A stretch of 64,000 nt of DNA from Bacteroidia bacterium (lineage in GTDB: Bacteria > Bacteroidota > Bacteroidia > 2-12-FULL-35-15): positions 1 to 64,000 of the forward strand of contig JAURXZ010000019.1 of the NCBI GenBank assembly GCA_030654175.1, written 5' to 3'. Positions 39,559 to 64,000 of the stretch are shown in pieces (within the stretch, counting starts at the first letter, position 1; each line of letters starts with the position of its first letter). The notes below the pieces were generated by a model that was given only the letters and a program-made list of their open reading frames with translations, was not told where the DNA came from and ran no database searches. Made by a program: the position numbers and the translations under genes.

Positions 39559-39563
39559 AAGGT

Positions 39564-39596
39564 CTCTTCTCTTAATTCCATAACAAAGGAGAAGAG
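39564..39596. repeat. CTCTTCTC/GAGAAGAG hairpin between the type B gene and the PorP gene
   Basis: 8-bp arms around a 17-base loop, in the 60-bp gap. It could be a weak terminator or a dispersed hairpin. Confidence 0.45.
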
Positions 39597-39618
39597 GCGA
39601 GATGTAAAAAAGGATACA

Positions 39619-40599: not shown

Positions 40600-40720
40600 A
40601 ATTGATTTGTTCAGCACTTTTTTTTTAACTGCTTAATTCATATTAAATACCGCATATTACTTATTACATATTTACATAATACATAATACATAATACATAA
40701 TGCTTTTTTTTCGTCAATTT

Positions 40721-43381: not shown

Positions 43382-43838
43382 TTCCCCAAGGTTATTATCG
43401 TAACCTAAATCTTGCATTGCTTAAGGTTTAGTTGATTATTGACTTTTCGAGCACATTTTGTATTAGACTTTATATAAGCTAAAATACATTGTAATGTTTA
43501 CAAAGAAATTGATGGTTAAAATGGGTACACACAATTTTTTCGACAAGCTCGAAATTACCACGCGCGCAGTCATTTCGAGCTTGTCGAGAAAGTGCGGCTG
43601 ATTGCCTTAACACTTTAACTTATATAAAGTCTGTTAGGTAACAACCCTTTCCTATAAAAAGGCCATTTGCATTTTTTTAAATTATTTCCCGGTTTCCCAA
43701 TCACATAAAAGCAAAATATAATGCAACTTAAAACGCATTAATTGCATCTTGGTTATAATCTAAAAAGCCTTAGCCGAATTCTTTTTTGTAACGAAAAAAT
43801 CAATATATTTATCTCAGTTTAAAACAAAATATTCCAAC
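43382..43838. other. intergenic region between the OmpA gene and the large type B gene
   Basis: 457 bp without a gene. It contains one long imperfect inverted repeat (entered separately at 43540-43587). The rest is AT-rich with no promoter of convincing spacing. Confidence 0.5.
43540..43587. repeat. TCGACAAGCTCGAAAT inverted repeat
   Basis: TCGACAAGCTCGAAAT and its exact complement ATTTCGAGCTTGTCGA, 16-bp arms around a 16-base spacer containing CGCGCGC. A transposon-end-like dispersed repeat type; no transposase nearby. Confidence 0.7.
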
Positions 43839-46800: not shown

Positions 46801-47924
46801 CCGGACCTTGTGCTTCTGCGGTGGATAGTATGATTATAAGCATAATGCCATCACCAATAGCCAATGCCGGGGCAAATCAATCCATTTGTGAGGGCTCAGT
46901 TATTACACTTGCAGGCACAATTGGAGGTTCGGCAACTAGCGGAACCTGGAGCGGTGGGGGTGGAACATATTCTCCAAACAGTTCAGTTTTAAACGCTGTT
47001 TATAATCCAAGCCCTGCCGAGTATGCTCAGGATTCGGTAGTGTTGTCATTAACAACAGATAATCCGGCCGGGTCGCCATGTACAGCCAGCACTTCAAATG
47101 TTGTTATTCATTTCTATAAAAGTCCGGTTGTTAATTTTACAGTTGATGATACTGCCGGATGCCCTCTGCACTGTGTGAATTTTAATGATTTAACTGTTGT
47201 TACTGGCGGGGCAACTATTGTTAGCTGGAACTGGAATTTTGGCGATAACAGCACTGGTTCTGACATTCCGGATCCTTCACATTGTTATTCGCAAACAGGC
47301 ACATATAATGTTACATTAACAACAACTTCCAGTAATACGTGTTCAGGCACTTTATCAATTTCTCAAATGGTGGATGTTTTTTCTAATCCTGTGGCAGGAT
47401 TTGATCCTTCACCAAACCCTTCAACAGTGACGCATCCGGAAATTACTTTTAGTGATCAGTCATCAGCAGATGTCAATAATTGGCTCTGGATTTTTGGTGA
47501 TGGAGATACATTAACAACAAATACTGCAAGTCCCATGCATTTATTTCCAAGTGATTCCGTAGGTATTTATTATACTTCTTTAATTGTGCAAAATGCTTAT
47601 GGTTGTTCTGATACAGCCATACATGAAATTGTGTTCGGGCCCGAATTCAGCTTCTTTATTCCCTCTTCATTTACACCCAATAATGATGGGATAAATGATA
47701 ATTTTTCCGGGCACGGGGTAGGTATTCTAAAATACGAATTAATGATTTTTGACCGATGGGGAAATCTGATTTTTCATTCCGATGATTTGAATAAAGTCTG
47801 GGATGGTAAGGCCAATCGTGGTGCCGATAAAGCACAGCAGGATGTGTATGCCTGGAAGGTGGTACTTACTGATGTATTCAGAAAAAAACATAATTATATT
47901 GGTACTGTAACAATTGTTAAGTAA
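43839..47924 (+). CDS. large T9SS type B protein with Ig-like and PKD domains
   Basis: 1361 residues. Signal peptide (MLLILLSLSIFTYG, about 16-30), then EICNNGIDDNGNGLIDLNDSVDCSC, an N-terminal Ca-binding-like segment; a first domain of about 220 residues; then Ig-like modules of two kinds, WSGTGIT-type and SYSWxPSxGLSS-type, and three repeats with SGTWSGGxGTY. Two PKD domains (WNWNFGDNSTGSD, WLWIFGDGDTLTT) precede the type B sorting domain (SSFTPNNDGINDNFSG, MIFDRWGNLIF, VWDGKANRGADKAQQDVYAWKV). It is likely a surface adhesin or glycan binder; ligand unknown. It is in the PorP/OmpA neighbourhood. Confidence 0.88.
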   Translation: MSIVKITIPLFNRAFMLLILLSLSIFTYGQEICNNGIDDNGNGLIDLNDSVDCSCTPPTPSLIANASFESMNCCPSTFSQMNCAQGWVQASSATADYMNTCGLVFGGATAAGLVPFPDGNGIAGVISATGYQEYIGSCLLSPMLADTAYSLEMSIASTPISNMGGVCNGGVINYPPSNIVIYGSTSCTNLPFAGQLCPPAPWQVLGTALYTPVNTWGTITLNFTPTVNINAIIFGSPCTLPAGYTNGPCYPYFYFDNLFLNKTAAVNSAIIQSGNWCNNTALLTGNAVTGATYQWYLSGVALVGKTALTLDVSGNSLPQGAYTLVTTVGSVCSHASATVTGYSNPPSIFNAGPFCTYDPAAILNANIAGGVWSGTGITDATNGIFDPAIASSGNHSIFYTLPSSGSCPRADTLIIVVNDPPVSTAGLDTTICSGASGSIGGPPVIGYLYSWTPSTGLSSSIASNPAITEVNAGTTPLVLNYSVITTDAFSGCMSLDQVVVTINPTPAITPAGPFCNTDPAITLTTNISGGIWSGTGITNTSTGAFDPALATAGNNSITYTASGICPDSDNITIVVGVKPISNAGTDLTICSGAAGNIGIPLTAGNSYSWLPSAGLSSSSVSDPGITALNTGTLPVVTTYTVTTSATGTSCQSVDSVIVTVNPQPDLVITDPVAVCSPATVDITLAAVTSGTTGGGVMSYWLNSLATTALSSPAAVAASGTYYIKLTAVGGCTDIQSVIVTVNPGQATNAGADIVLCTGDTGNIGVAAVLGNTYSWNPSAGLSSATISNPSITLTNSGTSPVVTTYTLTATSPSCVSTDTVNVTVNPIATADAGPSQTICASSGAVLAGVIGASVTSGTWSGGNGTYAPNNTDLNTIYTPDLAEIIAGSVTLTLTTNDPPGSCLPASSSVIISINVPAIIDAGLDDTICIGSTAVLAGVIGGVATSGTWSGGGGTFSPDNTLSNAVYTPGLSETQAGTASLVYTSDDPSGPCASAVDSMIISIMPSPIANAGANQSICEGSVITLAGTIGGSATSGTWSGGGGTYSPNSSVLNAVYNPSPAEYAQDSVVLSLTTDNPAGSPCTASTSNVVIHFYKSPVVNFTVDDTAGCPLHCVNFNDLTVVTGGATIVSWNWNFGDNSTGSDIPDPSHCYSQTGTYNVTLTTTSSNTCSGTLSISQMVDVFSNPVAGFDPSPNPSTVTHPEITFSDQSSADVNNWLWIFGDGDTLTTNTASPMHLFPSDSVGIYYTSLIVQNAYGCSDTAIHEIVFGPEFSFFIPSSFTPNNDGINDNFSGHGVGILKYELMIFDRWGNLIFHSDDLNKVWDGKANRGADKAQQDVYAWKVVLTDVFRKKHNYIGTVTIVK

Positions 47925-48263
47925 AAAACATGATTTTTCCTGTTAACATTTTAATCAGTTGATTTTTTAGTGTTAAAGTCCAAATTTTGCCTTGAAAGAA
48001 CTGAAATGCCTGGGAACTTTTTATTTCCGGATTTTTTTATAACTTTACCCTGTTCTTCATTAGTTGATTAATGTTTTTATGCCATTGCTGAATTTTGTAA
48101 ATGGCGTGGAATCTTATTTTTTATTACAAATTTTAATTCAGTCTTTTTGTTAAATATTGGATTTCCTATCTGATATTTTTATTAAAAAAAAAGGAAAACA
48201 GTTTTGTTTTTTTTCTAATTCAATATATATGAAGGCATTGTCGTAAGTTTATTTACAAGGTTT
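47925..48263 (+). other. intergenic region after the large type B gene
   Basis: 339 bp, AT-rich, with no repeat, terminator or promoter of convincing form. A possible upstream start codon for the LRR gene at 48264 falls at its right edge. Confidence 0.4.
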
Positions 48264-48305
48264 TTGAAGCATTTAATTTATAATAGTTTAATCCTTTTTT
48301 TTAAT

Positions 48306-49262
48306 ATGGAAAATAATATTATTTTTTTATCGAAATCTAAACTTATACTTGCTTTGGCCTTTTGGTCCTGCTTTTTTACTGTTCTGGCTCAATCAGAGGA
48401 CAAATCATATCTTAAGCAATTTGATCCTGCTTCTAAAACAGGTATCGATAATTTTATTCCGATTTCAAAATATGGCCCTGTTGTTACGCTCTCCAATTTA
48501 CCTGAAGCCATCAAAAATCCAACTTATTATCACAGTGCACGTTTTAGTAATTTAGCACTTGTTAATTTCCCTGACGAACTTTTCCTTTTTGTGAATTTGG
48601 AAGAAATTGATATTTCAGGTAATTCTTTAACTAAGCTGCCGTCCAGACTGAATGAATTAAAAAATCTAAAAGCGCTTCATGTAAATAAGAATCTGCTAAC
48701 ATCATTAAATACTGAAATAACGTCATGCAGCATGCTTGAAGTTCTTCAGATTCAGGATAATCCTCTTGAAAACATCAGTAAAGAAATTGGGAAAGTAACT
48801 ACTCTCAAAGAACTTACAATTGGGGGGATCTCGCGTAATTGTACTATTCCTGTTGAGGTATGGAATCTTACAAATCTTATAAAATTAAAACTTGTCAATG
48901 TAAATCTTACAGAAATACCACCTTCTGTTGCAGGTCTCAAAAAGTTGGATGAGCTTTGTTTGTCTAGCAATTCCATTACAGAGATCCCGGTTGAATTATA
49001 TTCACTTACAAACATTACTTATATTAATCTTGGGTATAATAAATTAAATGTAATTCCAGCTTCAATTAAAGCATTCGAAAATCTTGATTATCTCGGAGTA
49101 TATTATAACCCTGTAAATAAATTTCCTGAAGAGATCGGTAACTTGAAAAAGTTGTCTTTTTTAAGTTGCTGGGGAACCAGCCTGCCTCCTGCTGAAATTG
49201 AAAAAGTTAAAAAGAAATTGCCTTTAACTAAAGTACACGATACTGAAACGGATCTTCATTGA
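48306..49262 (+). CDS. secreted leucine-rich repeat protein
   Basis: About 318 residues with a signal peptide (IIFLSKSKLILALAFWSCFFTVLAQ). From about residue 90 there are about nine LRRs of 23 residues, for example LEEIDISGNSLTKLPSRLNELKN, LDELCLSSNSITEIPVELYSLTN and ITYINLGYNKLNVIPASIKAFEN. No T9SS sorting domain and no membrane anchor, so it is probably periplasmic or surface-bound through another route. The ORF also opens with an ATG 14 codons upstream (48264), but MENN gives the better signal peptide. The LRR face usually binds protein; partner unknown. It lies between two large type B genes. Confidence 0.8.
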   Translation: MENNIIFLSKSKLILALAFWSCFFTVLAQSEDKSYLKQFDPASKTGIDNFIPISKYGPVVTLSNLPEAIKNPTYYHSARFSNLALVNFPDELFLFVNLEEIDISGNSLTKLPSRLNELKNLKALHVNKNLLTSLNTEITSCSMLEVLQIQDNPLENISKEIGKVTTLKELTIGGISRNCTIPVEVWNLTNLIKLKLVNVNLTEIPPSVAGLKKLDELCLSSNSITEIPVELYSLTNITYINLGYNKLNVIPASIKAFENLDYLGVYYNPVNKFPEEIGNLKKLSFLSCWGTSLPPAEIEKVKKKLPLTKVHDTETDLH

Positions 49263-49332: not shown

Positions 49333-52300
49333 ATGAAAAATAAAATTTACTTAATAATTTCTTTTGCAATCTTGTTTTTTTTTCATGGTCATTCACAAAA
49401 TGTTACCGTAGAAATTGATGGTGATAATTTGTCTTATACCGAACCGGGTTGTGATGATTGCAATGGAAACCCTGATCCAAGCTGGAGGGTAAGGGCAACT
49501 ACTCCTAGTGGTACTTATAATTGGAATGTTGATATTGATGAGCTGTGCGGATGGTCAGGCGCAACCAATTTTACCTGGGTGGCTCCGCAAACCCAGTTAG
49601 CTACTGCTCCCATTTCTATTTCAATGGATGGCTGGGAAAGGGATAGTTGGTTTTGTGGCTCTGATGATAATGTTTGTGGCGGTTACTCCACTTTAGGAAC
49701 TGTTATTATAAATACCAATCCCCCATGCCAGTGGAATTATAATACCTACCAAAGAAATTGTGGTGGTGATCCTGGAACATATGCTGTCAGATGGAGTTAC
49801 TATTGGTTTTATCAAACCATACTTCCTGGTAGTATTGCTGTTGATGATACCATTTGTGCCGGGGAAGATCCTGATAGCTTAAGCAGCATTACAGCCGGTA
49901 CTGTTTATGCTACTTATCAATGGCAATATAGTGATGATAATGGTACTACGTGGATCGATATTTTAGGTGCAACTGGTCTGAATTATGATCCACCGGCCGG
50001 GCTTGCAAATACACGATGGTTCAGAAGAAAAGCTTCTTCCTGCGGTGGTGTTGCAGATGTTTTTTCCAATATCGTAGTTATCACTGTTAACCCTACCCCG
50101 GTAGCCACTGCTACGCCTGCAACACAAATACTCTGTTCTGGAGATAGCTCTTCTATTGTTTTAACAAGTACACTGATTGGGACAACTTTTTCTTGGACGG
50201 TTGTAGAAACTGCTCCTTTAGGTGCATTTGCAAATACTGATTCAACTATTACCCAGCTTTTAACAACCACAGGTGTGGTTTCAGATACTGCCACATATAC
50301 AATTACCCCTGCAACTTTGCTTTGCACAGGTGCTCCAATAACTGCAATAGTCGTTGTTAACCCAATTCCCTTGGCTTTTGCAACACCTACATCACAAACT
50401 ATTTGTTCAGGGGATACCACGTCTATCGCATTAACCAGCAACGTTGCAGGTGCAACTTTTTCATGGACAGTTTTTCTTGCAGGTGTATCTGGTGGTACCC
50501 TTGGTTCTGATTCAAGTATGCTGGAACAAACACTTATAAATACAGGAACTACTCCTGGCACAGCTGTTTACGCAGTATCTGCAGTAGGAAGTGGATGTCC
50601 TGGAGCACCCGTTAATGTTGCAATTACAGTAAATCCTTTAGATAACGCTTCTTTTACCTATACCTCTGCCACATATTGCCAGTCAGGAAGTAACCAAACG
50701 CCTACCATTACCGGATTACCGGGAGGTGTCTTCACATCAACTCCAAGTGGTTTATCAATTAATCCTTTAACAGGTACTATCGATTTATCCACAAGTGCAT
50801 TGGGTGCTTATAATCTTTGTTATTCAACAAACGGAGTTTGCCCTCTTACCAGTTGTATTGTAATGACAATTACCAATGCTACTCCTTCAGCCATTTTCAG
50901 TTATATCGGTTCCCCATTCTGTCAAAATGGAATTAACCCTTTCCCTGTTTATGATGTTGGCGCAAGTGCCGGCATATTCTCTGCAACTCCCGCAGGTTTG
51001 GTATTTGCACATGTTAATACGGGTGAGATCGATTTATCAGCCTGCGCACCGGGTACATATACCATCACCAATACCATTCCGCCAAGTGGTTTTTGTCTTG
51101 GAGTGAGTGCATCAACTGTTGTTACAATAGTTCCTTCTGATGACGCTTCTTTTACATATCCATCAGCTACCTATTGTACTTCAGGGCCGGCTCAAACACC
51201 AACAATTACCGGCTTACCTGGTGGTACTTTTTCAGCGGTCCCTGCCGGCTTAACCATCAACCCCGTTACAGGAACTATTGATTTATCAACAAGTGCTTTA
51301 GGCGCATACACGCTCTCCTACACAACAAATGGTGCTTGTCCGAATATAAGTTCCATAACAATGACAATTATCAATAATAATCCTTCTGCAGGATATAGCT
51401 ATATTGGTTCTCCTTTTTGTCAAAATGGAAGTAACCCTAATCCTCTTTTTGTTACCGGTGCAAGTGCCGGAATATTTTCTTCCACCCCGGTTGGATTAGT
51501 ATTTGTGCATGTTAACACAGGTCAGATCGATCTGGCCGCCAGTGCCCCGGGTACCTATACTGTTACCAATAACATACCACCAAGTGGCTCATGTGGCCCT
51601 GTAAGTGCTGCAACCACTATAATAATAACTCCCGGTGATGATGCTTCTTTTCTGTATTCATCAGCCACCTATTGTACATCAGGAACAAATCAAACACCCG
51701 TAATTACTGGTTTGCCGGGCGGTACGTTTTCATCTACTCCTATTGGTTTGTCGCTTAATGCAACAACCGGTATGATCACGCTGTCAACAAGTGCTCTGGG
51801 TGTTTATACGCTTTTTTATACAACAAACGGATCTTGCCCAAATACAAGTTCTATTACAATGACGATCACCAATAGTACACCGTTTGCAATGTTCAGTTAT
51901 GCGGGGTCATCTCATTGCCAAAATGGAAGTAATCCTCTTCCGGTTTTTCCTCCGGGAGCAAGTGCTGGTATATTCTCCGCAACTCCTGCCGGTTTGGCTT
52001 TTGTGAATTTGAATACAGGTGAGGTCGACTTAGCTGCATGCACACCCGGTACATATACCGTTACCAATAATATTCCTGCAAGTGGCTTTTGTACTGCAAC
52101 AAGCGCAACCACAACAATTATTATAAACCCTTCTGATGATGCTGCATTCACTTACACTTCAGCAACATATTGCCAATCAGGGACTATCCAGGTACCTACC
52201 ATTACTGGTTTGCCGGGAGGGGCGTTTTCATCTGTACCTTCCGGTTTGTCAATTAATCCGGTAACGGGTGCCATTAACTTATCATTAAGTGCTTTAGGGG

Positions 52301-54666
52301 TGTATACTCTTTCTTATTCCACAAATGGAGGTTGTCCAAATACAAGCTCTATTACCATGACCATAATCAATGCTAATCCTGCTGCAAATTTTAGTTATAC
52401 AGCATCTCCATTCTGTCAGAATATTAATAATCCTTTCCCATCTTTCGGTTCAGGTGCCAGTGCAGGCACTTTTTCTGCTACTCCGGTGGGGATAGTATTT
52501 GCACATGTTAATACAGGTGAGATCGATCTGGCATCAAGTGCACCCGGTACCTATACAGTAACTAATACAATTCCGGCAAGTGGTTCATGTGGTCCGGTGA
52601 GCGCAACTTCCACAGTTGTAATTAATTCAGCTGATGATGCATCTTTTGTTTATTCTTCAGCAACTTATTGTACTTCCGGAACCAATCAGACTCCTGCAAT
52701 TACAGGTTTACCTGGAGGTGTCTTTTCTGCAATCCCTCCGGGTTTATCAATTAATCCATCAACAGGTGAGATCAATTTATCATCCAGTAATACCGGTGCT
52801 TATACACTTTCTTATACAACCAATGGTTCCTGTCCAAATACCAGTTCCATAACCATGACCATTATCAATAGCGGACCTGATGCGGTTTTTACCTATTCAA
52901 GTGTTTCGTATTGCCAGAATGGAATTGATCCCCTGCCAGTTTTTGGTTCAGGTGCAAGTGCGGGTACTTTTTCTGCTTTACCTGCTGGTTTAGTGTTTAT
53001 ACACGTTAATACTGGTGAAATTGATCTGGCATCAAGTTTACCGGGTACTTATATTGTTACCAATGATATTCCTGTTAGTGGCACCTGTGGGCTGGTGACT
53101 GCAACAACAACAGTTATTATTACGCCTTCTGATGATGCTTCTTTTACCTACCCTTCAGCCACTTATTGTACATCTGGAGTTGACCCCACACCTGCAATTA
53201 CAGGTTTACCGGGTGGTACTTTTTCATCTGTTCCTGTAGGGCTCTCAATTAATTCAACAACAGGTGCCATTGATTTATCATCCAGTGCTTTGGGAGCTTA
53301 TACACTAAGCTATTCAACATTTGGCACTTGTCCAAATACCAGTTCAATTATTATGACAATTGCCGATAGTATCACTTCAGCTAATTTTAGCTATTCAGGA
53401 TCCCCATTCTGCCAAAATATAAATAATCCTTTTCCAACTTTTGCAGTTGGTGCAAGTGCAGGGATTTTCTCAGCATCGCCTGCCGGATTGGTATTTGAGC
53501 ATGTAAATACGGGTGAGATTGATTTAGCATCAAGTGCTCCGGGAACGTATACTATTACCAATACAATCCCTCAAAGTGGCTTCTGTATTGGTGTTAGCGC
53601 AACAGCTACAGTGGTTATCAATCCTTCTCCAGTGGTAACAGCTACTCCTGCTTTTCAAAACATTTGCATTGGTGGAACCACCTCTATTCTGTTAACCAGC
53701 TCAATGCCTGGAACAAACTTTGCCTGGACGGTTATCCAAACAGGTACTTCAGGAGGTACTCCGGGAATGGGTTCCAGCATTTCTCAAACATTGAACATTA
53801 CAGGTACAATTCAGGGGATAGCTACTTACACAATTACTTCGGATGCCGGTGGCTGTACCGGGGCACCGGTGATAGTGCCGGTTACTGTTAATTTATTGCC
53901 TGTTTCAGATACGTCTGCGGTAGTAGTTACACTTTCCAATTGCGGTGGTCCAACAGGTGGAGTTTCTGGCGTTACAATGGCGTCTGGTCAGACCCCATTT
54001 CAATTTGAATGGAAAGATGCAGGTGGAGCTGTTGTTGGAACCTCTGCTGATCTGAGCAATGTGGTACCTGGTGTATATACTTTAAGTGTTACAGATGCCA
54101 ACGGATGTGTCATCACAGTAGGTTCATTTACTGTAAATCCCACACCGCCAATTACAGCTCAGTTTACTGCAAATCCCTTAACCGGTGAAACTCCATTAAC
54201 GGTTAATTTTACAAATACCAGCATTGGTGCGGCCAATTATTTATGGGAGTTTGGTACTGGCGATACATCTAATTTAGTTAACCCTGCTTACGTTTATGTT
54301 CCTCTAGGTGTATCCACCGTTTGCTTAACTGCAATTAGTGCTACCGGCTGTATAGATACCGCATGCGCTTTAATTGATGTTTATCTTAATTCTGTTTTTA
54401 TTATTCCCAATATATTTTCGCCAAATGATGATAACCTTAATGATGTATTTACCGTTCAAGGAATTGGTCTAATTAAAATGGATGCAGAGATATATAACCG
54501 TTGGGGGCATAAACAATTTGAGTGGCATGCCGTTAATGGTGGCTGGGATGGTAGAACTGCCAGCGGATTACAGGCTGCTTCAGGAACTTATTATTATATA
54601 ATTAAAGCTTCCGGAATTGATGGTAAAGAATACTCAGAAAAAGGATTTTTTGACTTGGTCCGATAG
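49333..54666 (+). CDS. giant T9SS type B protein with six exact-length tandem repeats
   Basis: 1777 residues. Signal peptide and an N-terminal Trp/Cys-rich domain (about 20-165), then an Ig-like module, two 90-residue A modules (50098-50637), six 166-residue B pairs (50638-53625), one more A module, a SprB-like repeat (NCGGPTGG...FQFEWKDAGG), a PKD domain (ANYLWEFGTGDTSN) and a type B sorting domain (NIFSPNDDNLNDVFTVQG, EIYNRWGHKQF, GWDGRTASGLQAASGTYYYII). A and B modules each carry two Cys (ICSG/GC; YC/SC). It is probably an extended, disulfide-stapled surface filament or adhesin; ligand unknown. It is followed by a promoter and a small secreted-protein gene. Confidence 0.9.
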   Translation: MKNKIYLIISFAILFFFHGHSQNVTVEIDGDNLSYTEPGCDDCNGNPDPSWRVRATTPSGTYNWNVDIDELCGWSGATNFTWVAPQTQLATAPISISMDGWERDSWFCGSDDNVCGGYSTLGTVIINTNPPCQWNYNTYQRNCGGDPGTYAVRWSYYWFYQTILPGSIAVDDTICAGEDPDSLSSITAGTVYATYQWQYSDDNGTTWIDILGATGLNYDPPAGLANTRWFRRKASSCGGVADVFSNIVVITVNPTPVATATPATQILCSGDSSSIVLTSTLIGTTFSWTVVETAPLGAFANTDSTITQLLTTTGVVSDTATYTITPATLLCTGAPITAIVVVNPIPLAFATPTSQTICSGDTTSIALTSNVAGATFSWTVFLAGVSGGTLGSDSSMLEQTLINTGTTPGTAVYAVSAVGSGCPGAPVNVAITVNPLDNASFTYTSATYCQSGSNQTPTITGLPGGVFTSTPSGLSINPLTGTIDLSTSALGAYNLCYSTNGVCPLTSCIVMTITNATPSAIFSYIGSPFCQNGINPFPVYDVGASAGIFSATPAGLVFAHVNTGEIDLSACAPGTYTITNTIPPSGFCLGVSASTVVTIVPSDDASFTYPSATYCTSGPAQTPTITGLPGGTFSAVPAGLTINPVTGTIDLSTSALGAYTLSYTTNGACPNISSITMTIINNNPSAGYSYIGSPFCQNGSNPNPLFVTGASAGIFSSTPVGLVFVHVNTGQIDLAASAPGTYTVTNNIPPSGSCGPVSAATTIIITPGDDASFLYSSATYCTSGTNQTPVITGLPGGTFSSTPIGLSLNATTGMITLSTSALGVYTLFYTTNGSCPNTSSITMTITNSTPFAMFSYAGSSHCQNGSNPLPVFPPGASAGIFSATPAGLAFVNLNTGEVDLAACTPGTYTVTNNIPASGFCTATSATTTIIINPSDDAAFTYTSATYCQSGTIQVPTITGLPGGAFSSVPSGLSINPVTGAINLSLSALGVYTLSYSTNGGCPNTSSITMTIINANPAANFSYTASPFCQNINNPFPSFGSGASAGTFSATPVGIVFAHVNTGEIDLASSAPGTYTVTNTIPASGSCGPVSATSTVVINSADDASFVYSSATYCTSGTNQTPAITGLPGGVFSAIPPGLSINPSTGEINLSSSNTGAYTLSYTTNGSCPNTSSITMTIINSGPDAVFTYSSVSYCQNGIDPLPVFGSGASAGTFSALPAGLVFIHVNTGEIDLASSLPGTYIVTNDIPVSGTCGLVTATTTVIITPSDDASFTYPSATYCTSGVDPTPAITGLPGGTFSSVPVGLSINSTTGAIDLSSSALGAYTLSYSTFGTCPNTSSIIMTIADSITSANFSYSGSPFCQNINNPFPTFAVGASAGIFSASPAGLVFEHVNTGEIDLASSAPGTYTITNTIPQSGFCIGVSATATVVINPSPVVTATPAFQNICIGGTTSILLTSSMPGTNFAWTVIQTGTSGGTPGMGSSISQTLNITGTIQGIATYTITSDAGGCTGAPVIVPVTVNLLPVSDTSAVVVTLSNCGGPTGGVSGVTMASGQTPFQFEWKDAGGAVVGTSADLSNVVPGVYTLSVTDANGCVITVGSFTVNPTPPITAQFTANPLTGETPLTVNFTNTSIGAANYLWEFGTGDTSNLVNPAYVYVPLGVSTVCLTAISATGCIDTACALIDVYLNSVFIIPNIFSPNDDNLNDVFTVQGIGLIKMDAEIYNRWGHKQFEWHAVNGGWDGRTASGLQAASGTYYYIIKASGIDGKEYSEKGFFDLVR
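50638..53625 (+). repeat. six tandem 498-bp (166-codon) repeat units
   Basis: Unit starts (GAT codon of DDASF) fall at 50641, 51139, 51637, 52135, 52633 and 53131; every spacing is exactly 498 bp. Each unit is two related halves of about 83 residues: one with SATYC..G..PTITGLPGG, the other with SPFCQN..GASAG and FAHVNTGEIDL. Units differ widely in codons but never in length. They are inside the gene at 49333-54666. Confidence 0.95.
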
Positions 54667-54743: not shown

Positions 54744-54774
54744 TTTGATTATTTAAAGTTTTGTCATATCTTCG
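54744..54774 (+). promoter_or_regulatory. Bacteroidota promoter for the small secreted-protein gene
   Basis: TTTG at 54744-54747, 19 bp, TATCTTCG at 54767-54774 (one base off TAnnTTTG). It places transcription start near 54781, which rules out the upstream ATG at 54761 and supports the one at 54797. Confidence 0.65.
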
Positions 54775-54796
54775 CATAGAACTAATAAAAAGCAGT

Positions 54797-55249
54797 ATGA
54801 AAAAGATCATTTATTTAATAATTCCGTTGTTTGCTCTGTTTTTTTCGTTTTCATATAAAGCGGAGGCTCAGGCCATTATTGCTGATTGGACGATCTTAAA
54901 GCTGGATGTAGCTGGACGAACAAATGTTGGTGGTGTTGAAGCATTTGCTCAGGTGCGCAAGTGTAAAGAGGACGATGTGGTATATCTTAAAATTATTAAT
55001 CACAATGAACATACTGTAACTGTAAAATGGTATGATGCCGTTCTTACTCCTCAGCAAATTTGGATCAAGAAAGATAATGCTGCTGAACAAAAATCTATAA
55101 CCATTGAACCTAATAAAGAAGTGAAAGGTGATTGTGGAGCTGTAAGCTATACAGAATGTGTAATTAAATTAAAAGATTTTATCGACAAACCAGAATATTT
55201 CAAAGAATATGCCGTCTACCATTTTGAAGTTATAGCAGTTATGAAATGA
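54797..55249 (+). CDS. small secreted protein before the giant repeat gene
   Basis: 150 residues. Signal peptide MKKIIYLIIPLFALFFSFSYKAEAQ, then an uncharacterised domain of about 125 residues with three Cys (RKCKED, GDCGAV, YTECVIK) and mixed beta-type patterns. No sorting domain or lipobox. A frame-open ATG 12 codons upstream is excluded by the promoter position. It is 57 bp before the next gene with no terminator between, so it is probably co-transcribed with the giant repeat protein and may serve it; the function is unknown. Confidence 0.75.
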   Translation: MKKIIYLIIPLFALFFSFSYKAEAQAIIADWTILKLDVAGRTNVGGVEAFAQVRKCKEDDVVYLKIINHNEHTVTVKWYDAVLTPQQIWIKKDNAAEQKSITIEPNKEVKGDCGAVSYTECVIKLKDFIDKPEYFKEYAVYHFEVIAVMK

Positions 55250-55306: not shown

Positions 55307-58300
55307 ATGATTATAAAAACTACTCAATTCACGGGTCGTAATTCAAAAACTAACCGGAAGAATATTCTGGCTTCTCTGTTTTTGGCGTTTGTTCTTTTAT
55401 TGCCTTTTGTTGGTGCTTCTCAAACTGCTTGTAGAACGGTAAGCTGGTCTTCTGGTTGGTGTACCATTTGTGGTGGCTCTTCTTATGCATGTAATCCACC
55501 ATGGTCCGGAAGTGGAAACTGGAACAATGGTATACGCAATTTTACAGATCCTATCCCTGGCGGTAACAACATGACCAGCGTTTGTGTAACTGTTAGAAAA
55601 GCAGATTGTGGTTATGGAAGTTTATGCGTTTCAATAAATGGATTTACTTTACAGTGTAAGCCTCCGATAGGAGACTGTTGGTGTGGTAACTGTTGGCCTC
55701 AAACCTATTGTTTTACCGGAGTAGTTCCAGGTTACAATTATGGTGGAACCAATAGTTTACAAATCACTATTAGTGGAGGTGGCGGTTATCAGGCTGTTTG
55801 TGTTACTGATGCAAACATCTGTTTCAATTATGCTCCTTCATGTATACAATCCAATGCCCCATCATCTGCAAGTGCAAGTCCTAACCCTACTTGCGGGGGC
55901 TCTACAACATTAAGTGTTGGTGGAGGTTCTTTAGGAACAGGCGCTTCATGGAATTGGTACTCCGGTGGTTGTGGTGGATCTTTTGTTGGAAGCGGTTCTT
56001 CAATCAATGTATCGCCTTCATCCACTACCACTTATTATGTAAGAGCACAAGGGAATTGCAATACTACATCATGTGCTTCAGTTACAGTAACAGTTAATAC
56101 TCCATCTTCAGCTCCTTCATCTGCTTCGGCAAGCCCTAATCCTCTTTGCGGAGGTGGTTCAACAACATTAAGTGTAGGAGGAGGTTCTCTCGGAACCGGT
56201 GCTTCCTGGAACTGGTATGCCGGTAGTTGCGGTGGAACTTTTGTAGGCACGGGTTCCTCAATAAGTGTATCGCCCGGAACAACCACCACCTATTTTGTGA
56301 GGGCACAGGGAACTTGTAATACCACCGCCTGCGCTTCTGTTACTGTTACTTCAGGTGCTGTTTCTACAGCTCCGGTTTCAGCCACAGCAAGCCCTAATCC
56401 AACTTGTGGTGGTTCAACAACGTTAACACAAAATGGAGGATCGCTTGGATTGGGCGCATCGTATAAATGGTTTTCAGGAGCTTGCGGTGGAACCTTGATT
56501 GGAACGGGCCCTTCAATAAACGTTTCTCCATCATCCACTACCACTTATTATGTTCATGCCTCAGGAACCTGCAATACTACTGCTTGTGCACCCGTTACTG
56601 TTACTGTTAATTCAGCACCAGTAGCTACAGCATCTCTGTCAACACAATCAATATGTTCAGGTGGAACTACCTCTATCGGTTTAACTAGTTCAATTGGTGG
56701 AACAACTTTTACCTGGACAGTTGCTCAATCAGGTGTTTCAGGGGCTACTTCCGGGAGCGGAGCTTCTATTGCTCAAACGCTGTCAACCACTGGACCTGTT
56801 ACCGGAACTGCGGTATATACAATAACACCTACTGCAGGAGGTTGTGTTGGAAATTCAATAAATGTAACTATTGTTGTAAATCCAATACCTACTGCTACTG
56901 CAATTCCATCCACTCAGATAATTTGCTCCGGTGGTGTCACCTCTATTTCATTAACAAGTAATGTATCTGTAACATCTTTTAACTGGACGGTGGTCCAAAC
57001 AGGGACTTCTGGTGCTGCCAATGGTTCGGGTTCTACTATTTCTCAAACAATAGTTGCTACAGGAACGTCTCCCGGAACAGCTGTATATACAATTATTCCT
57101 TCAACCGTAACGTGTACAGGTCCTCCTCTGACTGTAACCGTTACTGTAAATCCAAAACCTGTTGCCACTGCGAGCCCTTCCACACAAACAATTTGTTCGG
57201 GAGATGCAACTGCAATTTCACTGACAAGTAACATTTCCGGTACTGTATTTAATTGGACAGCTGTTCAAACAGGTGTTTCTGGGGCTTCAGCTGGTAGTGG
57301 CGCCACAATTGGACAAACATTATCAGCAACAGGCACCACCACAGGTACTGTAACCTATACAGTTACTCCTTCAGTGGGCACGTGCTCTGGCATTCCAATT
57401 TTAGTTACTATTAGCGTAAATCCAAAGCCTGTTGTAACTGCAACTCCTTCATCACAAGCATTCTGTACCGGTAATTCCACGTCTATATCATTATCAAGCA
57501 GCGTACCGGGTACTACTTTTTCCTGGACAGTAGTTCAAACAGGCGTATCTGGAGCTACACCAGGGGCAGGTTCAAGTATTATTCAGGCCTTATCTACAAC
57601 AAGCTCTACAATGGGTACTGCTGTATATACCATAACTCCAACCGTTCCCGGAAGTGGCTGTACAGGAGCCCCAATAAATGTTACAATTACCATTAATCCA
57701 TACCCTCTTGCTATTGCTACGCCAACCTCACAAACGATTTGCTCCGGAAGTACTACAGGGATCTCTTTAACAAGCAATGTTAGTGGCGCAACTTTCGCAT
57801 GGACCATTAGTCAAAATGTGGTGAGTGGGGGATCTGCAGGAACCGGCTCATCCATTACTCAAACATTAACAACTACTGGGTCAACAGCGGGATCAGCGGT
57901 ATACACCATCACGCCTTCGGCTACCGGTTGTGTAGGTTTTCCTATTTCTGTTATTGTAAATGTAGATCGTACACCAATTGCAACTGCAACCCCAACTGCT
58001 CAAACAATTTGTGCCGGAGATGCAACCGCAATTACTTTAACAAGTGATATTCCGGGAAGTACTTTCGCATGGACAGTTGCTCAAACAGGTGCTTCCGGTG
58101 CTTCACCTGGAGGTGGTTCTGCCATTACTCAAGTTTTATCTGCAACAGGGATCACAGCAGGTACAGTAACATACACAATTACTCCTACTTCCGGAAATTG
58201 TCCCGGTGCACCTATTACAGTTACTATAACTGTAAACCCTAAACCTATTGTTACAGCTACTCCTGCATCTCAGGCAATTTGTTCTGGAAACAGCACTGCT

Positions 58301-61300
58301 ATTGCATTAACAAGTAATATTGTAGGGACTACTTTTTCCTGGACAGTTAACCAAACAGGTGTATCTGGTGCAACTGCGGGTTCCGGCTCTAATATAGCTC
58401 AGGCTTTAACACTTACAGGATCTGTAAATGGCAGCGTAGTATATACCGTTACCCCTTCAACTTCTAATGGATGTTTGGGAACTGCAATCACCATTGTAGT
58501 TACCGTAAACAAAGCGGATAACCCCTCATTTAATTTTGCTTTTTCAACCTATTGTCAAACTGAGCCTAACCCAACTCCTGCCATTACAGGTTTGGCCGGA
58601 GGGACTTTTACTGCAACTCCTGCAGGTTTAGTTTTTGTAAATGTTAATTCAGGACAGATTAATTTATCAGCAAGTACAATAGGTACTTATGTTATTACCT
58701 ATACAACAAATGGTCCCTGCCCAACAACTAGCACCACAAATGTCACTATTGTAACCTTGCCTTCATCGAGTTTCAGTTATACGCCTCCTCCATTTTGTCA
58801 GTATAGTCCCAACATTTTTCCAACCTTTCCTGTTGGTGCGAGTGCCGGAGTATTTTCGGCAACCCCTGCAGGTTTAGTATTTGTAAATCCGGCTACCGGT
58901 GAGATTGATTTAACATTAAGTACTCCCGGTACATATATGGTTAAAAATACCATAGCCCCGGGTCCGTGTCCAGGCGATATCGACTCAATGCCAATTACAA
59001 TTAATACCGCTCCTATAGTAACAGCAACTCCTTCGGCTCAATCGATCTGTTCCGGAATTACTACAGGAATTTCCTTAACGAGTACAATTGGCGGAACAAC
59101 TTTTGCCTGGACAGTAGTTCAAACAGGTGTTTCTGGTGCCTCAGCCGGAACGGGTGCTTCAATTGCCCAAACATTATCTACCACAGGCAACGTTACCGGA
59201 ACTGCTGTTTATACAATAATACCAACGACTCCTGGTGGTTGCCCCGGACAGGCAATTACTGTTACAATAACGGTAAACCCAATTATGGTTGCAACTGCAA
59301 CCCCTTCGGCACAAACAATTTGTTCGTTCGGAATAACATCTATTGCTTTATCAAGTACTGTTGTTGGAACTTTTTTCTCCTGGACAATGGTTCAAACAGG
59401 AGTTTCCGGGGCAGCAGCTGGTTCAGGCTCAACAATTGCTCAAACCTTAACCACAACTGGAACAGTGCCCGGCACGGTAACATATACAATTACACCGTCA
59501 GCTAATAGTTGTAGTGGAGCTCCAATAATTGTAACTATTACTGTAAATCCTGTACCTGTTTTAACCGCAACCCCATCAACTCAAACAATTTGTTCTGGCG
59601 ATCCTACTTCAATTGCAATAACAGCTGACGTTGCCGGAACAACATTTGCCTGGACGTTTAATCAGACGAATGCTTCCGGAGCATCTGATGGAACAGGTGC
59701 ATCTATTGCACAAACCTTGACCGCATTAGCCACCACACCGGGTATTGTAACATATACGGTTGTACCAACCGTTGGAGGTTGCAGCGGTACCCCGGTTATT
59801 GTTACAGTTACTGTAAATCCACGACCTGTTGTTACAGCAACTCCTCCTGTTGATGCATTTTGCTCTTTTGGTTCCACTTCAATGGCATTGACAAGTAATG
59901 TTGCAGGAACAACTTATGCATGGACAGTTGTTCAGTCGGGTGTAACCGGAGCTGCACCTGGTACCGGCCCAACTATCGTTCAAACCTTATCTACAACCGG
60001 CACTGTTGCCGGTACAGCTATTTACACAATTACACCAACAGCAAATGGTTGTGCAGGAACTCCAATAAATGACACAATAACTGTTAGTCCTATACCAGTT
60101 GCCACAGCCACTCCCGTTTCACAAACATTCTGTTCAGGAGGCATTACATCTATTGCCTTGGCAAGTAATGTTATCGGTACAACTTTTTCCTGGACGGTGG
60201 TTCAAACAGGTGTATCTGGAGCATCGGTCGGATCAGGTTCAGCGATCACTGATTCATTAACGGCTACCGGGATAGTGAATGGAACAGCCGCCTATACTAT
60301 TACTCCTTCTTCAGGTGGAGGGTGCTCAGGTTCCCCTATTTCTGTTACAATAACAGTAAAACCACGACCGGTTGTTACACCGATCCCTTCTGCAGTAACC
60401 ATTTGTTCCGGTGATACAACATACATTGTTTTAGTAAGCAATATTCCCGGAACTACTTTTGTTTGGACGGTAAATCAAACCGCGGTTTCGGGTGCGTTTG
60501 CAAGTTCCGGTAATACTATTGCACAAGGTTTGGCAGCAACAGGCACAACCTCGGGCACTGCAATTTATACAGTTACTCCTACTTTCGGTGCTTGTCCGGG
60601 TACTCCGGTTTCAGATACCGTTAAAGTGAACCCACGACCTGTTGTAACAGCAACTCCTTCATCAGACAGTATTTGTTCAGGTGACACCACTGCCATAGCA
60701 TTAACAAGTAATGTATTGGGTACAACTTTCCCTTGGACAGTCACCCAAACCGATGTTTCAGGCGCTACTGCAGGTTCAGGTTCCGTAATAGCTCAGACGT
60801 TAACAAATACAAGCTTCTTTGCACTGCCAGGCACAGCAGTGTATACAGTTACTCCTTTAGCGGATGGATGTTCGGGTAATCCTATTTCTGTTCCAATTGT
60901 TGTAAAACGTACCGATAACGCAGCTTATTCTTATACATCAGGAACCTATTGCCAATCAGCACCTAACCCAACACCAGTAATTACCGGTTTGGCTGGAGGA
61001 ACTTTTTCAGCAACTCCGGCTGGTTTATCTCTCAATCCGGTAACGGGGACTATTGTTAATGCAACAAGTGGCTTAGGTACCTATAATCTTTGTTATACAA
61101 CAAATGGCCCTTGTCCGAAAGCAAATTGTATGAATTTGACGATAACTGTGGCACCAATTGCACTTTTCAGTTATGCAGGTTCTCCATTCTGTCAGTTTGG
61201 GAGCAATAATCCTGTTCCTGTTTTTGGTGTTGGTGCAAGTGCCGGTATTTTTTCAGCTTCTCCGGCAGGCTTAGTTTTTGTACATGTGAATACAGGGGAG

Positions 61301-64000
61301 ATCGATTTATTATTAAGTGCCCCCGGAACCTATGTTGTAACCAATACAATTCCTGCAGGTGGTACCTGTGCTGCTGAAACGGCAACCTTTACAATTACTA
61401 TTAATCCCGGCCCAACAGTAACAGCAACTCCTTCAACGCAAACAATATGTTCAGGAGATTCCACTTCTTTTGCTTTAACAAGTACAATGCCTGGTACCGT
61501 TTATAGTTGGACTATAATTCAAACAGGTGTTTCCGGAGGATCTGCCGGAACAGGTACATCGATCAGCCAGGTTTTAGCAACTACAGGAACTGCTTCAGGA
61601 ACTGCTGTTTATATTATAACTCCAACAGCGGGTGGTTGTACCGGGCTTCCGATAACGGTAACGGTAACGGTTAATTCTATCCCTTCTGCTACTGCAGTTC
61701 CTTCTGCTCAGATAATATGTTCGGGCGATTCTCCATTAATTGTTCTTACAAGTGATATTATAGGAACTACTTATAGTTGGACAGTAACTCAGTCTGGAAC
61801 TTCAGGGGCTTCTCCGGGTTCAGGCTCAATTATTTCTCAGCCATTAACGGCAACAGGAACATCTGCAGGAACAGCAGTATATACAATTACTCCCACTGCA
61901 GGTGGCTGTATAGGTTCTCCGATTTCAGTTACAATAACTGTAAATCCAAAAGCGCTGGCAACGGCTACACCTTCTGTTCAAACTATTTGTTCAGGAGATT
62001 CAACTTCAATCGCTTTATCCAGTAACCTTGTAGGTACTACTTTCACATGGACCGTTGCTCAAAGTGGGGCTTCGGGTGCATCTGATGGAAACGGTAATTC
62101 AATTGTTCAGGTTTTGTCTGCAACCTTCGGAACCACTCCGGGTACGGTAACTTATACTATTACCCCTTCAACTAACGGTTGTCCCGGAGCACCAATTTTA
62201 GTGACCATTACGGTAAATCCAAACCCTGTTGTAACAATATCACCTGCGGCACAAACAGTTTGTTCCGGTACAGCCACATCTCTTGCTTTAACAAGTAATA
62301 TTTCAGGGACCACCTTTTCCTGGACAGTTGTTCAGGCAGGTGTATCCGGGGCAACTCCAGGAAGTGGTCAAAATATTGTTCAAACCTTAACGGCTACAGG
62401 TAGTGTTGGAGGAACAGCAATATATACAATAACACCTACAGCAAATGGTTGTCAGGGATTGCCAAAAAATGTTACGGTAACTGTTAATCCTACTCCTGTC
62501 GCAGTTGCTACTCCAACGTCACAAACTATCTGTTCAGGAAATATAACTTCAATCGCTTTGTCAAGCAATGTTTTAGGTACAACCTTTTCATGGACGGTAA
62601 GTCAGAATAATGTTACAGGGGCTACAGCAGGCGCGGGTTTCAATATCGCGCAAACATTATCAGCAACCACATCAGGAACAGCACTTTATATAATTACTCC
62701 TAATGCAGGTGGCTGTCCGGGAGCTCCTATTTCTGTTACTATTACAGTAAAACCTACATTGGTGGCGGTAGCGCTTCCTTCTTCTAAAACTATTTGCTCA
62801 GGAGATTCTGTTTTAGTCCTCTTAACAAGCAATATTCCCGGAACCACTTTTTCTTGGACAGTAAATCAAAATAACGCATTTGGTGCATCTAATGGAAGCA
62901 ATGATACCATTGCACATGCATTAACTGCAACAGGCACAACTCCGGGCCTTGTTACTTATACTGTTACTCCTGTTGCAGGTGGTTGTAATGGTTTACCTAT
63001 TTTAGTGAATATAACGGTTAATCCACCACCTGTTGTTACAGCAACACCTACATCACAAACAATATGTTCCGGTGCTACCTCCTCTTTGGCTTTATCAAGT
63101 ACTGTATCGGGGACCACTTTCTCCTGGACAGTCGTCCAAACGGGAGTGACAGGAGCAACAGCCGGCTCCGGTTCAATTATTTCTCAAACATTAACAACAA
63201 CCGGCCTTGTTTCAGGAACAGCTGTTTATACCATAACCCCTTCCGCAAACGGATGTCCGGGAACACCGATTAATGTTACCGTTAATGTTACTCTTTTGGA
63301 TGATGCTGATTTTACCTATCCATCGGCAACCTTTTGTATATCAGGAGCTGACCCAATCCCTACAATTACCGGTTTGCCGGGAGGAACTTTTTTATCAACA
63401 ACTCCTCCTTTTAGCTTATCTGTTAGTCCAACCACTGGTATTATCGATTTGTCAGCCAGTGCTTTGGGTGTATATACCCTTTCCTATACAACAAATGGGC
63501 CTTGTCCGAATACCAGTTCTATAAATGTTACAATTTCTAATACTGACCCATCTGCGAATTTTAGTTATTTGGGTTCTCCTTTCTGTCAGTACGGAACTAA
63601 TCCTACACCAATTTATGGTGCCGGTGCAAGTGCAGGTACCTATACTGCTGCCCCTGCAGGTTTAGTATTTGCGCATGTTAATACCGGTGAGATTGATTTA
63701 ACATTAAGTGCAGCAGGTACCTATTTAATTACCAACACTATCCCTGTAAGCGGATCATGTGCTGGTGCAATCGCAACATATTCAATTACTATTGATGCAG
63801 CTCCGGCAGCAACAGCAACACCTTCAGCACAAACGATCTGTTCCGGAAGCTCAACATTAATTGTATTAACCAGTTCAATGCCGGGTACAACCTATGCTTG
63901 GAGTGTAGTTCAGTCAGGTGTTTCAGGTGCATCTGCCGGAGCTAATGACTCCATCGTTCAAACATTATCTACTACAGGACTTGTATCCGGATCTGTAGTA
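55307..64000 (+). CDS. giant repeat surface protein, 3' end beyond the window
   Basis: At least 2898 residues, open to the last base with no stop. N-terminal signal anchor/peptide (LASLFLAFVLLLPFVGASQ), then a Cys-rich domain (SWSSGWCTICGGSS...DCWCGNCWPQTYC), three repeats of about 85 residues from 55856 (SASASPNP.CGGSTTL..GGSLG), and from 56618 a higher-order array: blocks of seven 90-residue A modules plus one B pair (165-168 residues). Modules carry ICSG...GC Cys pairs. It shares modules with the gene at 49333, so a T9SS type B end is expected past the window (inference). Likely an exported extended adhesin. Confidence 0.85.
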   Translation, partial: MIIKTTQFTGRNSKTNRKNILASLFLAFVLLLPFVGASQTACRTVSWSSGWCTICGGSSYACNPPWSGSGNWNNGIRNFTDPIPGGNNMTSVCVTVRKADCGYGSLCVSINGFTLQCKPPIGDCWCGNCWPQTYCFTGVVPGYNYGGTNSLQITISGGGGYQAVCVTDANICFNYAPSCIQSNAPSSASASPNPTCGGSTTLSVGGGSLGTGASWNWYSGGCGGSFVGSGSSINVSPSSTTTYYVRAQGNCNTTSCASVTVTVNTPSSAPSSASASPNPLCGGGSTTLSVGGGSLGTGASWNWYAGSCGGTFVGTGSSISVSPGTTTTYFVRAQGTCNTTACASVTVTSGAVSTAPVSATASPNPTCGGSTTLTQNGGSLGLGASYKWFSGACGGTLIGTGPSINVSPSSTTTYYVHASGTCNTTACAPVTVTVNSAPVATASLSTQSICSGGTTSIGLTSSIGGTTFTWTVAQSGVSGATSGSGASIAQTLSTTGPVTGTAVYTITPTAGGCVGNSINVTIVVNPIPTATAIPSTQIICSGGVTSISLTSNVSVTSFNWTVVQTGTSGAANGSGSTISQTIVATGTSPGTAVYTIIPSTVTCTGPPLTVTVTVNPKPVATASPSTQTICSGDATAISLTSNISGTVFNWTAVQTGVSGASAGSGATIGQTLSATGTTTGTVTYTVTPSVGTCSGIPILVTISVNPKPVVTATPSSQAFCTGNSTSISLSSSVPGTTFSWTVVQTGVSGATPGAGSSIIQALSTTSSTMGTAVYTITPTVPGSGCTGAPINVTITINPYPLAIATPTSQTICSGSTTGISLTSNVSGATFAWTISQNVVSGGSAGTGSSITQTLTTTGSTAGSAVYTITPSATGCVGFPISVIVNVDRTPIATATPTAQTICAGDATAITLTSDIPGSTFAWTVAQTGASGASPGGGSAITQVLSATGITAGTVTYTITPTSGNCPGAPITVTITVNPKPIVTATPASQAICSGNSTAIALTSNIVGTTFSWTVNQTGVSGATAGSGSNIAQALTLTGSVNGSVVYTVTPSTSNGCLGTAITIVVTVNKADNPSFNFAFSTYCQTEPNPTPAITGLAGGTFTATPAGLVFVNVNSGQINLSASTIGTYVITYTTNGPCPTTSTTNVTIVTLPSSSFSYTPPPFCQYSPNIFPTFPVGASAGVFSATPAGLVFVNPATGEIDLTLSTPGTYMVKNTIAPGPCPGDIDSMPITINTAPIVTATPSAQSICSGITTGISLTSTIGGTTFAWTVVQTGVSGASAGTGASIAQTLSTTGNVTGTAVYTIIPTTPGGCPGQAITVTITVNPIMVATATPSAQTICSFGITSIALSSTVVGTFFSWTMVQTGVSGAAAGSGSTIAQTLTTTGTVPGTVTYTITPSANSCSGAPIIVTITVNPVPVLTATPSTQTICSGDPTSIAITADVAGTTFAWTFNQTNASGASDGTGASIAQTLTALATTPGIVTYTVVPTVGGCSGTPVIVTVTVNPRPVVTATPPVDAFCSFGSTSMALTSNVAGTTYAWTVVQSGVTGAAPGTGPTIVQTLSTTGTVAGTAIYTITPTANGCAGTPINDTITVSPIPVATATPVSQTFCSGGITSIALASNVIGTTFSWTVVQTGVSGASVGSGSAITDSLTATGIVNGTAAYTITPSSGGGCSGSPISVTITVKPRPVVTPIPSAVTICSGDTTYIVLVSNIPGTTFVWTVNQTAVSGAFASSGNTIAQGLAATGTTSGTAIYTVTPTFGACPGTPVSDTVKVNPRPVVTATPSSDSICSGDTTAIALTSNVLGTTFPWTVTQTDVSGATAGSGSVIAQTLTNTSFFALPGTAVYTVTPLADGCSGNPISVPIVVKRTDNAAYSYTSGTYCQSAPNPTPVITGLAGGTFSATPAGLSLNPVTGTIVNATSGLGTYNLCYTTNGPCPKANCMNLTITVAPIALFSYAGSPFCQFGSNNPVPVFGVGASAGIFSASPAGLVFVHVNTGEIDLLLSAPGTYVVTNTIPAGGTCAAETATFTITINPGPTVTATPSTQTICSGDSTSFALTSTMPGTVYSWTIIQTGVSGGSAGTGTSISQVLATTGTASGTAVYIITPTAGGCTGLPITVTVTVNSIPSATAVPSAQIICSGDSPLIVLTSDIIGTTYSWTVTQSGTSGASPGSGSIISQPLTATGTSAGTAVYTITPTAGGCIGSPISVTITVNPKALATATPSVQTICSGDSTSIALSSNLVGTTFTWTVAQSGASGASDGNGNSIVQVLSATFGTTPGTVTYTITPSTNGCPGAPILVTITVNPNPVVTISPAAQTVCSGTATSLALTSNISGTTFSWTVVQAGVSGATPGSGQNIVQTLTATGSVGGTAIYTITPTANGCQGLPKNVTVTVNPTPVAVATPTSQTICSGNITSIALSSNVLGTTFSWTVSQNNVTGATAGAGFNIAQTLSATTSGTALYIITPNAGGCPGAPISVTITVKPTLVAVALPSSKTICSGDSVLVLLTSNIPGTTFSWTVNQNNAFGASNGSNDTIAHALTATGTTPGLVTYTVTPVAGGCNGLPILVNITVNPPPVVTATPTSQTICSGATSSLALSSTVSGTTFSWTVVQTGVTGATAGSGSIISQTLTTTGLVSGTAVYTITPSANGCPGTPINVTVNVTLLDDADFTYPSATFCISGADPIPTITGLPGGTFLSTTPPFSLSVSPTTGIIDLSASALGVYTLSYTTNGPCPNTSSINVTISNTDPSANFSYLGSPFCQYGTNPTPIYGAGASAGTYTAAPAGLVFAHVNTGEIDLTLSAAGTYLITNTIPVSGSCAGAIATYSITIDAAPAATATPSAQTICSGSSTLIVLTSSMPGTTYAWSVVQSGVSGASAGANDSIVQTLSTTGLVSGSVV
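56618..64000 (+). repeat. higher-order (7A+B) superrepeat array, three blocks and the start of a fourth
   Basis: Blocks 56618-59011 (2394 bp), 59012-61411 (2400 bp), 61412-63802 (2391 bp) and 63803 onward. Each has seven A modules of about 270 bp (the Cys codons of ICSG at about 56649, 56920, 57190, 57460, 57736, 58005, 58278 in block 1) and a B pair of 495, 498 and 504 bp. Position-specific marks are shared between blocks: AFC in modules 4 of blocks 1 and 2, and SIGGTTF in modules 1 of the same blocks. Confidence 0.92.

Follow-up and report, generated by a model that had tools for sequence, protein, structure and literature searches.

A giant gene of nested module repeats, most likely encoding a cell-surface fibre, in an uncultured Bacteroidota

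The giant gene g55 and its surroundings

The window, the whole 64,000-nucleotide stretch of DNA that was analysed, corresponds to positions 1-64000 of contig 44 (C44) in a genome of 5.1 Mb. The features listed below all lie on the forward strand.

39619-40599, forward: PorP/SprF family protein (PF11751, E=3.5e-75), candidate outer-membrane carrier for the giant proteins
49333-54666, forward: paralogue g49, with 2A, six B double modules, 1A, PKD_4 and CHU_C (module profiles, Pfam)
54761-55249, forward: predicted small secreted protein, immediately ahead of g55; ORFs like it stand in front of other giants
55307-64000, on to contig position 69235, forward: giant ORF g55 (open frame)
55436-55843, forward: N-terminal Cys-rich head domain, ~136 residues, conserved in orthologues
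55844-56611, forward: three Ig_7-type modules (PF19081; sequence), boundaries approximate
56612-59005, forward: block 1 of 2394 bp, 7A plus one B double module (own-module profiles)
58517-59008, forward: B double module (B1+B2) of block 1, no Pfam family
59006-61405, forward: block 2 of 2400 bp, 7A plus one B double module (own-module profiles)
60914-61405, forward: B double module of block 2 (module profiles)
61406-63796, forward: block 3 of 2391 bp, 7A plus one B double module (own-module profiles)
63299-63796, forward: B double module of block 3 (module profiles)
63797-64000, forward: beginning of block 4, whose five A modules run on beyond the window (own-module profiles)

The g55 frame is open from 55307 past the window end at 64000, runs on to contig position 69235 and comprises 4,643 codons. 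A likely signal peptide precedes the head domain, which matches no family in Pfam or NCBIfam above the cut-off. Over ten of its cysteines are invariant, and it carries a GDCWCGNCWP-like motif. The genes g87 and g93 begin with weaker relatives of this head. The A modules are PKD_5 domains in Pfam (PF19406; 21 stretches scored in the window, E=6.6e-232) and are ~58-63% identical to each other in protein. Each B double module consists of B1 and a related B2 of ~80 residues apiece, with no Pfam or NCBIfam family above the cut-off. Downstream of the last A module, the C-terminus holds a PKD domain followed by a CHU_C/TIGR04131 sorting domain. The product is most likely a cell-surface fibre of 4,643 residues, with ~50 small domains in nested repeats.

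Measured from a fixed point in each leading A module, the blocks start at window positions 56612, 59006, 61406 and 63797. The initial annotation had described three 7A-B blocks of 2394, 2400 and 2391 bp with 21 complete A modules and part of a 22nd, all of which is confirmed by profiles built from the modules themselves. It had also taken the A count to be fixed at seven and had named a varying count in the continuing sequence as a refutation. The count does vary, as the A runs past block 3 contain 5, 2, 0, 0, 0 and 1 modules. The full order annotated with the own-module profiles is 7A-B-7A-B-7A-B-5A-B-2A-B-B-B-B-1A-CTD, a total of 29 A modules and eight B double modules. Because the complete pattern breaks after the third block, seven is not a general rule; the window end cut g55, so that its regular start looked like one. 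The initial annotation had suggested that the block may set the spacing of a structural or binding unit. Spacing between B double modules is regular for three blocks, after which they stand head to tail, and this argues against a simple ruler along the whole fibre. A tandem paralogue, g69, adjoins g55 beyond the window (contig C44 69583-86301, 5,573 codons) and likewise departs from seven, with a run pattern of 11-12-7-5-2-4B-1.

Small predicted secreted proteins of ~150-185 residues and similar sequence are encoded directly ahead of several giants in three species, and the tandem duplicate g69 has no such gene before its start. No Pfam family was found for the window copy. Relatives lie at 86378-86929 and 92197-92655 of C44, at 23660-24136 and 38381-38905 of contig C5 in genome G010, and at 54312-54773 of contig C25 in genome G018. 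The small protein may be a partner of the giants. Further upstream, a row of genes at 38794-49262 encodes a CHU_C protein, the PorP/SprF protein, an OmpA/PD40 protein, a PKD and CHU_C protein and an LRR protein. On contig C5 of G010, ORFs matching this row by size and order precede the giant cluster.

Similarity by position within the blocks

Identity between the 21 A modules in blocks 1-3 peaks at a lag of seven modules (mean 0.627, 14 pairs) and is 0.613 at lag 14, with 0.54-0.61 at the remaining lags except lag 20, for which there is one pair only. Modules at the same position of different blocks are more alike than other pairs in g55 alone, in both protein and DNA (p<5e-5), by a joint permutation test that preserves the overall similarity of every module; with the modules beside B removed, the values are 2e-4 to 7e-4. 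Synonymous codons alone carry the same-position signal (p=1e-4), and it is absent from them when only blocks 1 and 2 are compared. When four orthologues are averaged the signal reaches z=4.5 (p=2e-5), with positive same-position residuals at 7/7 positions. In the orthologue-averaged matrix the five A modules of block 4 fit positions 1-5 best, and positions 3/6, 4/7 and 1/4 are alike, revealing a period of three within the block. At the level of individual motifs, the initial annotation had pointed to AFC in module 4 and SIGGTTF in module 1; AFC and IGGTTF are both shared by blocks 1 and 2 and are absent from block 3.

A maximum-likelihood tree of the module positions agrees with these results. 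On this tree 11 changes suffice for the position label, where shuffles take 14.6 (p=0.007), and the position-modulo-3 label takes 5 against 9.8 (p=0.0008). The block label takes 13 changes against 10.4 in shuffles, i.e. worse than chance, so the A modules do not cluster by block. Clustering by block or neighbour was rejected on this result and on a lag-1 residual below zero. The A modules thus group by position in the block and not by neighbour, which the initial annotation had named as the outcome that would support block duplication. Individual branches are weakly supported, and the tree was set aside as a guide to the exact order of duplication because the branches are too weak.

The alternative to common descent is that the place of a module in its block imposes like constraints, with the 7-7-7 start being coincidental. 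Modules 1 and 7, which adjoin B, are among the position-specific ones in the orthologue-averaged matrix, and run lengths in relatives range from 5 to 12. However, the same-position signal persists when the modules beside B are left out and only interior modules 2-6 are used (p=2e-4 to 8e-4), and position-specific selection on the protein would not yield the synonymous-codon signal. This explanation is already disfavoured and is considered unlikely.

Duplication of whole blocks, as the initial annotation had suggested, is supported because the peaks at lags 7 and 14 in protein and DNA are shared by synonymous codons. The first interpretation therefore holds for block duplication and fails for the fixed number seven. 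Both marks of a multi-domain super-repeat are found in g55: similarity peaks at one block length, and the modules cluster by position. The sequence comparisons support an origin of the 7A+B blocks by duplication of whole blocks, with the period of three nested inside. On this model, a run would first have grown in steps of a few modules and the entire 7A-B block would have been copied afterwards, although this order is one that we infer. The resulting nested architecture comprises a period of about three A modules in the block, three copies of 7A+B, two shorter runs (5 and 2) and then B double modules arrayed head to tail.

The paralogue g69 retains part of this register. Block 3 of g69 is in register with block 3 of g55 (p=2e-4), as is block 4 with its counterpart (p=0.008); neither test can yield a lower p. 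The same permutation analysis found little or no lag-7 signal in g69. When its runs of 11 and 12 modules are mapped onto seven positions, only some of the eleven offsets fit, with a best p of 0.0014, uncorrected.

Module order and number in related species

Orthologues were sought within the same genus; the set searched contained one genus of the order only. ORFs of 4,655 and 4,653 codons were found in two other genomes, G018 and G010, and both have the order 7-7-7-5-2-4B-1 in single frames, identical to g55. In genome G011, 7-7-7 runs up to a contig edge and 5-2-4B-1 lies on a separate contig. An assembly error is an unlikely source of the g55 pattern, since two more genomes have the identical architecture in one frame each and a third has it over two contigs. 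Within the genus set searched, only a few species carry g55. In G010, a small ORF and then g87 follow g55, with no g69 between.

Pairwise, the orthologues are 64-70% identical with 12-28 gapped residues over ~4,640. The comparison dates the g55 architecture to before the split of at least three species, with the numbers kept while the sequence diverged to this degree. The best match of an A module of g55 is at the same position for 26/29 modules in G010 and 18/29 in G018, and hence the matches give no hint of strong concerted evolution. In G011, locus L054 (C102 1357-9686) has modules that match g55 by position, but its head shares 78% identity with the g69 head and 61% with the g55 head, which suggests that paralogues have exchanged heads.

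Giant repeat adhesins are usually treated as variable-length, fast-drifting genes. The module counts of g55 look frozen, not drifting. Other giants of the cluster also hold their counts across species (2A-6B-1A, 4A-4B-1A, 3A-B-2A-6B-1A and 1A-7B-1A), although two putative orthologues appear to differ in B number. Repeat number is constant over the three to four species compared. In a further group of giants from this genus the A modules form two runs, of 5/7, 7/9 or 8/10, indicating that run length does change over longer times. In L030 (G001:C69), L031, L033, L035 and L071 the second A run is always two modules longer than the first, and the A modules of G001 seem to alternate with a period of two.

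The longest exact DNA repeats in g55 are 28 and 23 bp, compared with 18-25 in synonymous shuffles of the same protein. Such short repeats leave little identical DNA for unequal recombination, and this lack of substrate could account for frozen counts without selection on length. The fixed counts would then reflect chiefly the divergence of the modules, which deprives unequal recombination of identical sequence. Selection on the length of g55 is possible and may add to this effect. A further proposal is that the order and number of A spacers and B joints encode the fibre length and the positions of the nodes, with module number under selection, as a bacterial counterpart of titin and nebulin; this proposal is given a fairly low probability.

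The main interest of g55 lies in an entire irregular module order, not visible within the window, that is identical in related species. Its 29 A modules and eight B double modules are kept in order in two further species, and over two contigs in a third, while about a third of the residues have changed. This offers a test of whether fibre length and node spacing are selected, or whether divergence alone freezes a repeat array. For such a test g69, in which the first two runs are longer, is the natural comparison.

Export, proposed role and comparison with known systems

The C-terminal domain of g55 is a type B sorting domain of the Type IX secretion system (T9SS), scoring 64.2 bits with PF13585 (cut-off 27) and 50.1 bits with TIGR04131 (cut-off 35). 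T9SS genes are present in the genome, with SprA at 2611 bits and GldL over its cut-off, and a GldJ-like protein lies just under its cut-off (440.9 vs 458.2 bits). On the cell surface, a type B substrate stays attached to its own carrier (PMC12635249). The PorP/SprF gene at 39619-40599 belongs to the same cluster as g55 and sits 15 kb upstream. As the two are 15 kb apart and the genome has 23 PorP/SprF matches, their pairing is a guess. The local PorP/SprF protein ends in SYDFKISKPNFFSPRYF, without a Cys-X-Cys tail, and such a tail is present in 0/14 recovered PorP/SprF tails.

AlphaFold predicts an all-beta structure for an A-B-B-A stretch, with a mean pLDDT of 90 in the best of five models and 55-71 in the other four. 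Its closest PDB matches are tandem beta-sandwich fibres, with GhpA fragments first and then cadherins. The g55 protein would be exported by the T9SS and held at its C-terminus by a PorP/SprF carrier. Its ~50 beta-sandwich domains would stand out as a fibre of ~150-200 nm, based on the usual length of 3-4 nm per domain, presenting the Cys-rich head as an adhesin. In this fibre the A modules may act as spacers, with the B double modules serving as joints or as nodes for binding.

GhpA is a T9SS-secreted hook protein (PMC11205867), and g55 could be a grappling-hook protein of this kind that serves prey capture, as in Aureispira, rather than a general adhesin. GhpA fragments are the best PDB fold matches of both structure models (E ~1e-11), and phmmer aligns the window part of g55 to the GhpA chain with E=2.4e-84. 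However, the phmmer score is probably one of composition, as the bias is 34-107 bits per stretch, and the fold matches have TM-scores of only 0.2-0.5 with cadherins and fibronectin close behind. None of the profiles for A, B, A-B-B-A and head matches GhpA, which indicates fold likeness and not membership. Membership by sequence was rejected on these negative profiles and the heavily biased phmmer match, and a GhpA-type hook is regarded as very unlikely.

A second possibility is a gliding adhesin of the SprB type, carried along the cell surface. Like SprB, the g55 product is a very large type B T9SS substrate; an SprF-family gene lies upstream of g55, and the genome has SprA, GldL and the GldJ-like protein. 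Against this, the GldJ score is below the cut-off, and movement in F. johnsoniae depends on a Cys-X-Cys tail of SprF (PMC12635249), which the local PorP/SprF protein and all 14 recovered tails lack. The missing tail on the local carrier candidate speaks against a gliding role of g55, which is considered doubtful. The features of the predicted protein make it most likely a long surface adhesin displaying its Cys-rich head. As a whole, we consider it likely that g55 specifies an SprB-like surface fibre, in which nested duplication has given an ancient, count-stable super-repeat of the titin style, and that this fibre is exported by the T9SS, held by PorP/SprF and uses its head as the adhesin.

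Several known systems share features with g55. In the openly accessible literature searched, nothing closer was found for higher-order repeats in bacterial surface proteins. SprB of Flavobacterium johnsoniae, with its carrier SprF, is likewise a giant tandem-domain surface protein with a type B T9SS sorting domain; a PorP/SprF-family gene lies in the g55 cluster, and the expected length of g55 is of the same order as the ~200 nm of SprB (PMC12635249). The likeness is one of features; the g55 modules are PKD_5 and the unnamed B type. SprB moves along the cell and is needed for gliding, and the local PorP/SprF differs from SprF in having no Cys-X-Cys tail. GhpA of Aureispira sp. CCB-QB1 is a giant T9SS-linked Bacteroidota protein with tandem beta-sandwich domains and the best fold match. 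It forms a heptameric hook; the modules and head of g55 have no profile-level match to it.

The periscope proteins (SasG, Rib and Sgo_0707) resemble g55 in having a tandem-domain rod that projects a terminal head. They show high DNA identity between repeats and variable repeat number (PMC9704523). In contrast, the g55 modules are diverged, with a longest exact repeat of 28 bp, and their counts are conserved between species. Nebulin, with its units of seven domains, and the titin super-repeats share with g55 the similarity peak at the block length. The domains are unrelated, the setting is a bacterial surface and not muscle, and g55 has only three regular blocks before it becomes irregular. Growth by copying several domains at a time, in nebulin in units of seven, has been described (PMC1553488), so this growth mode is already known; its fixed form in a bacterial surface fibre is the new part.
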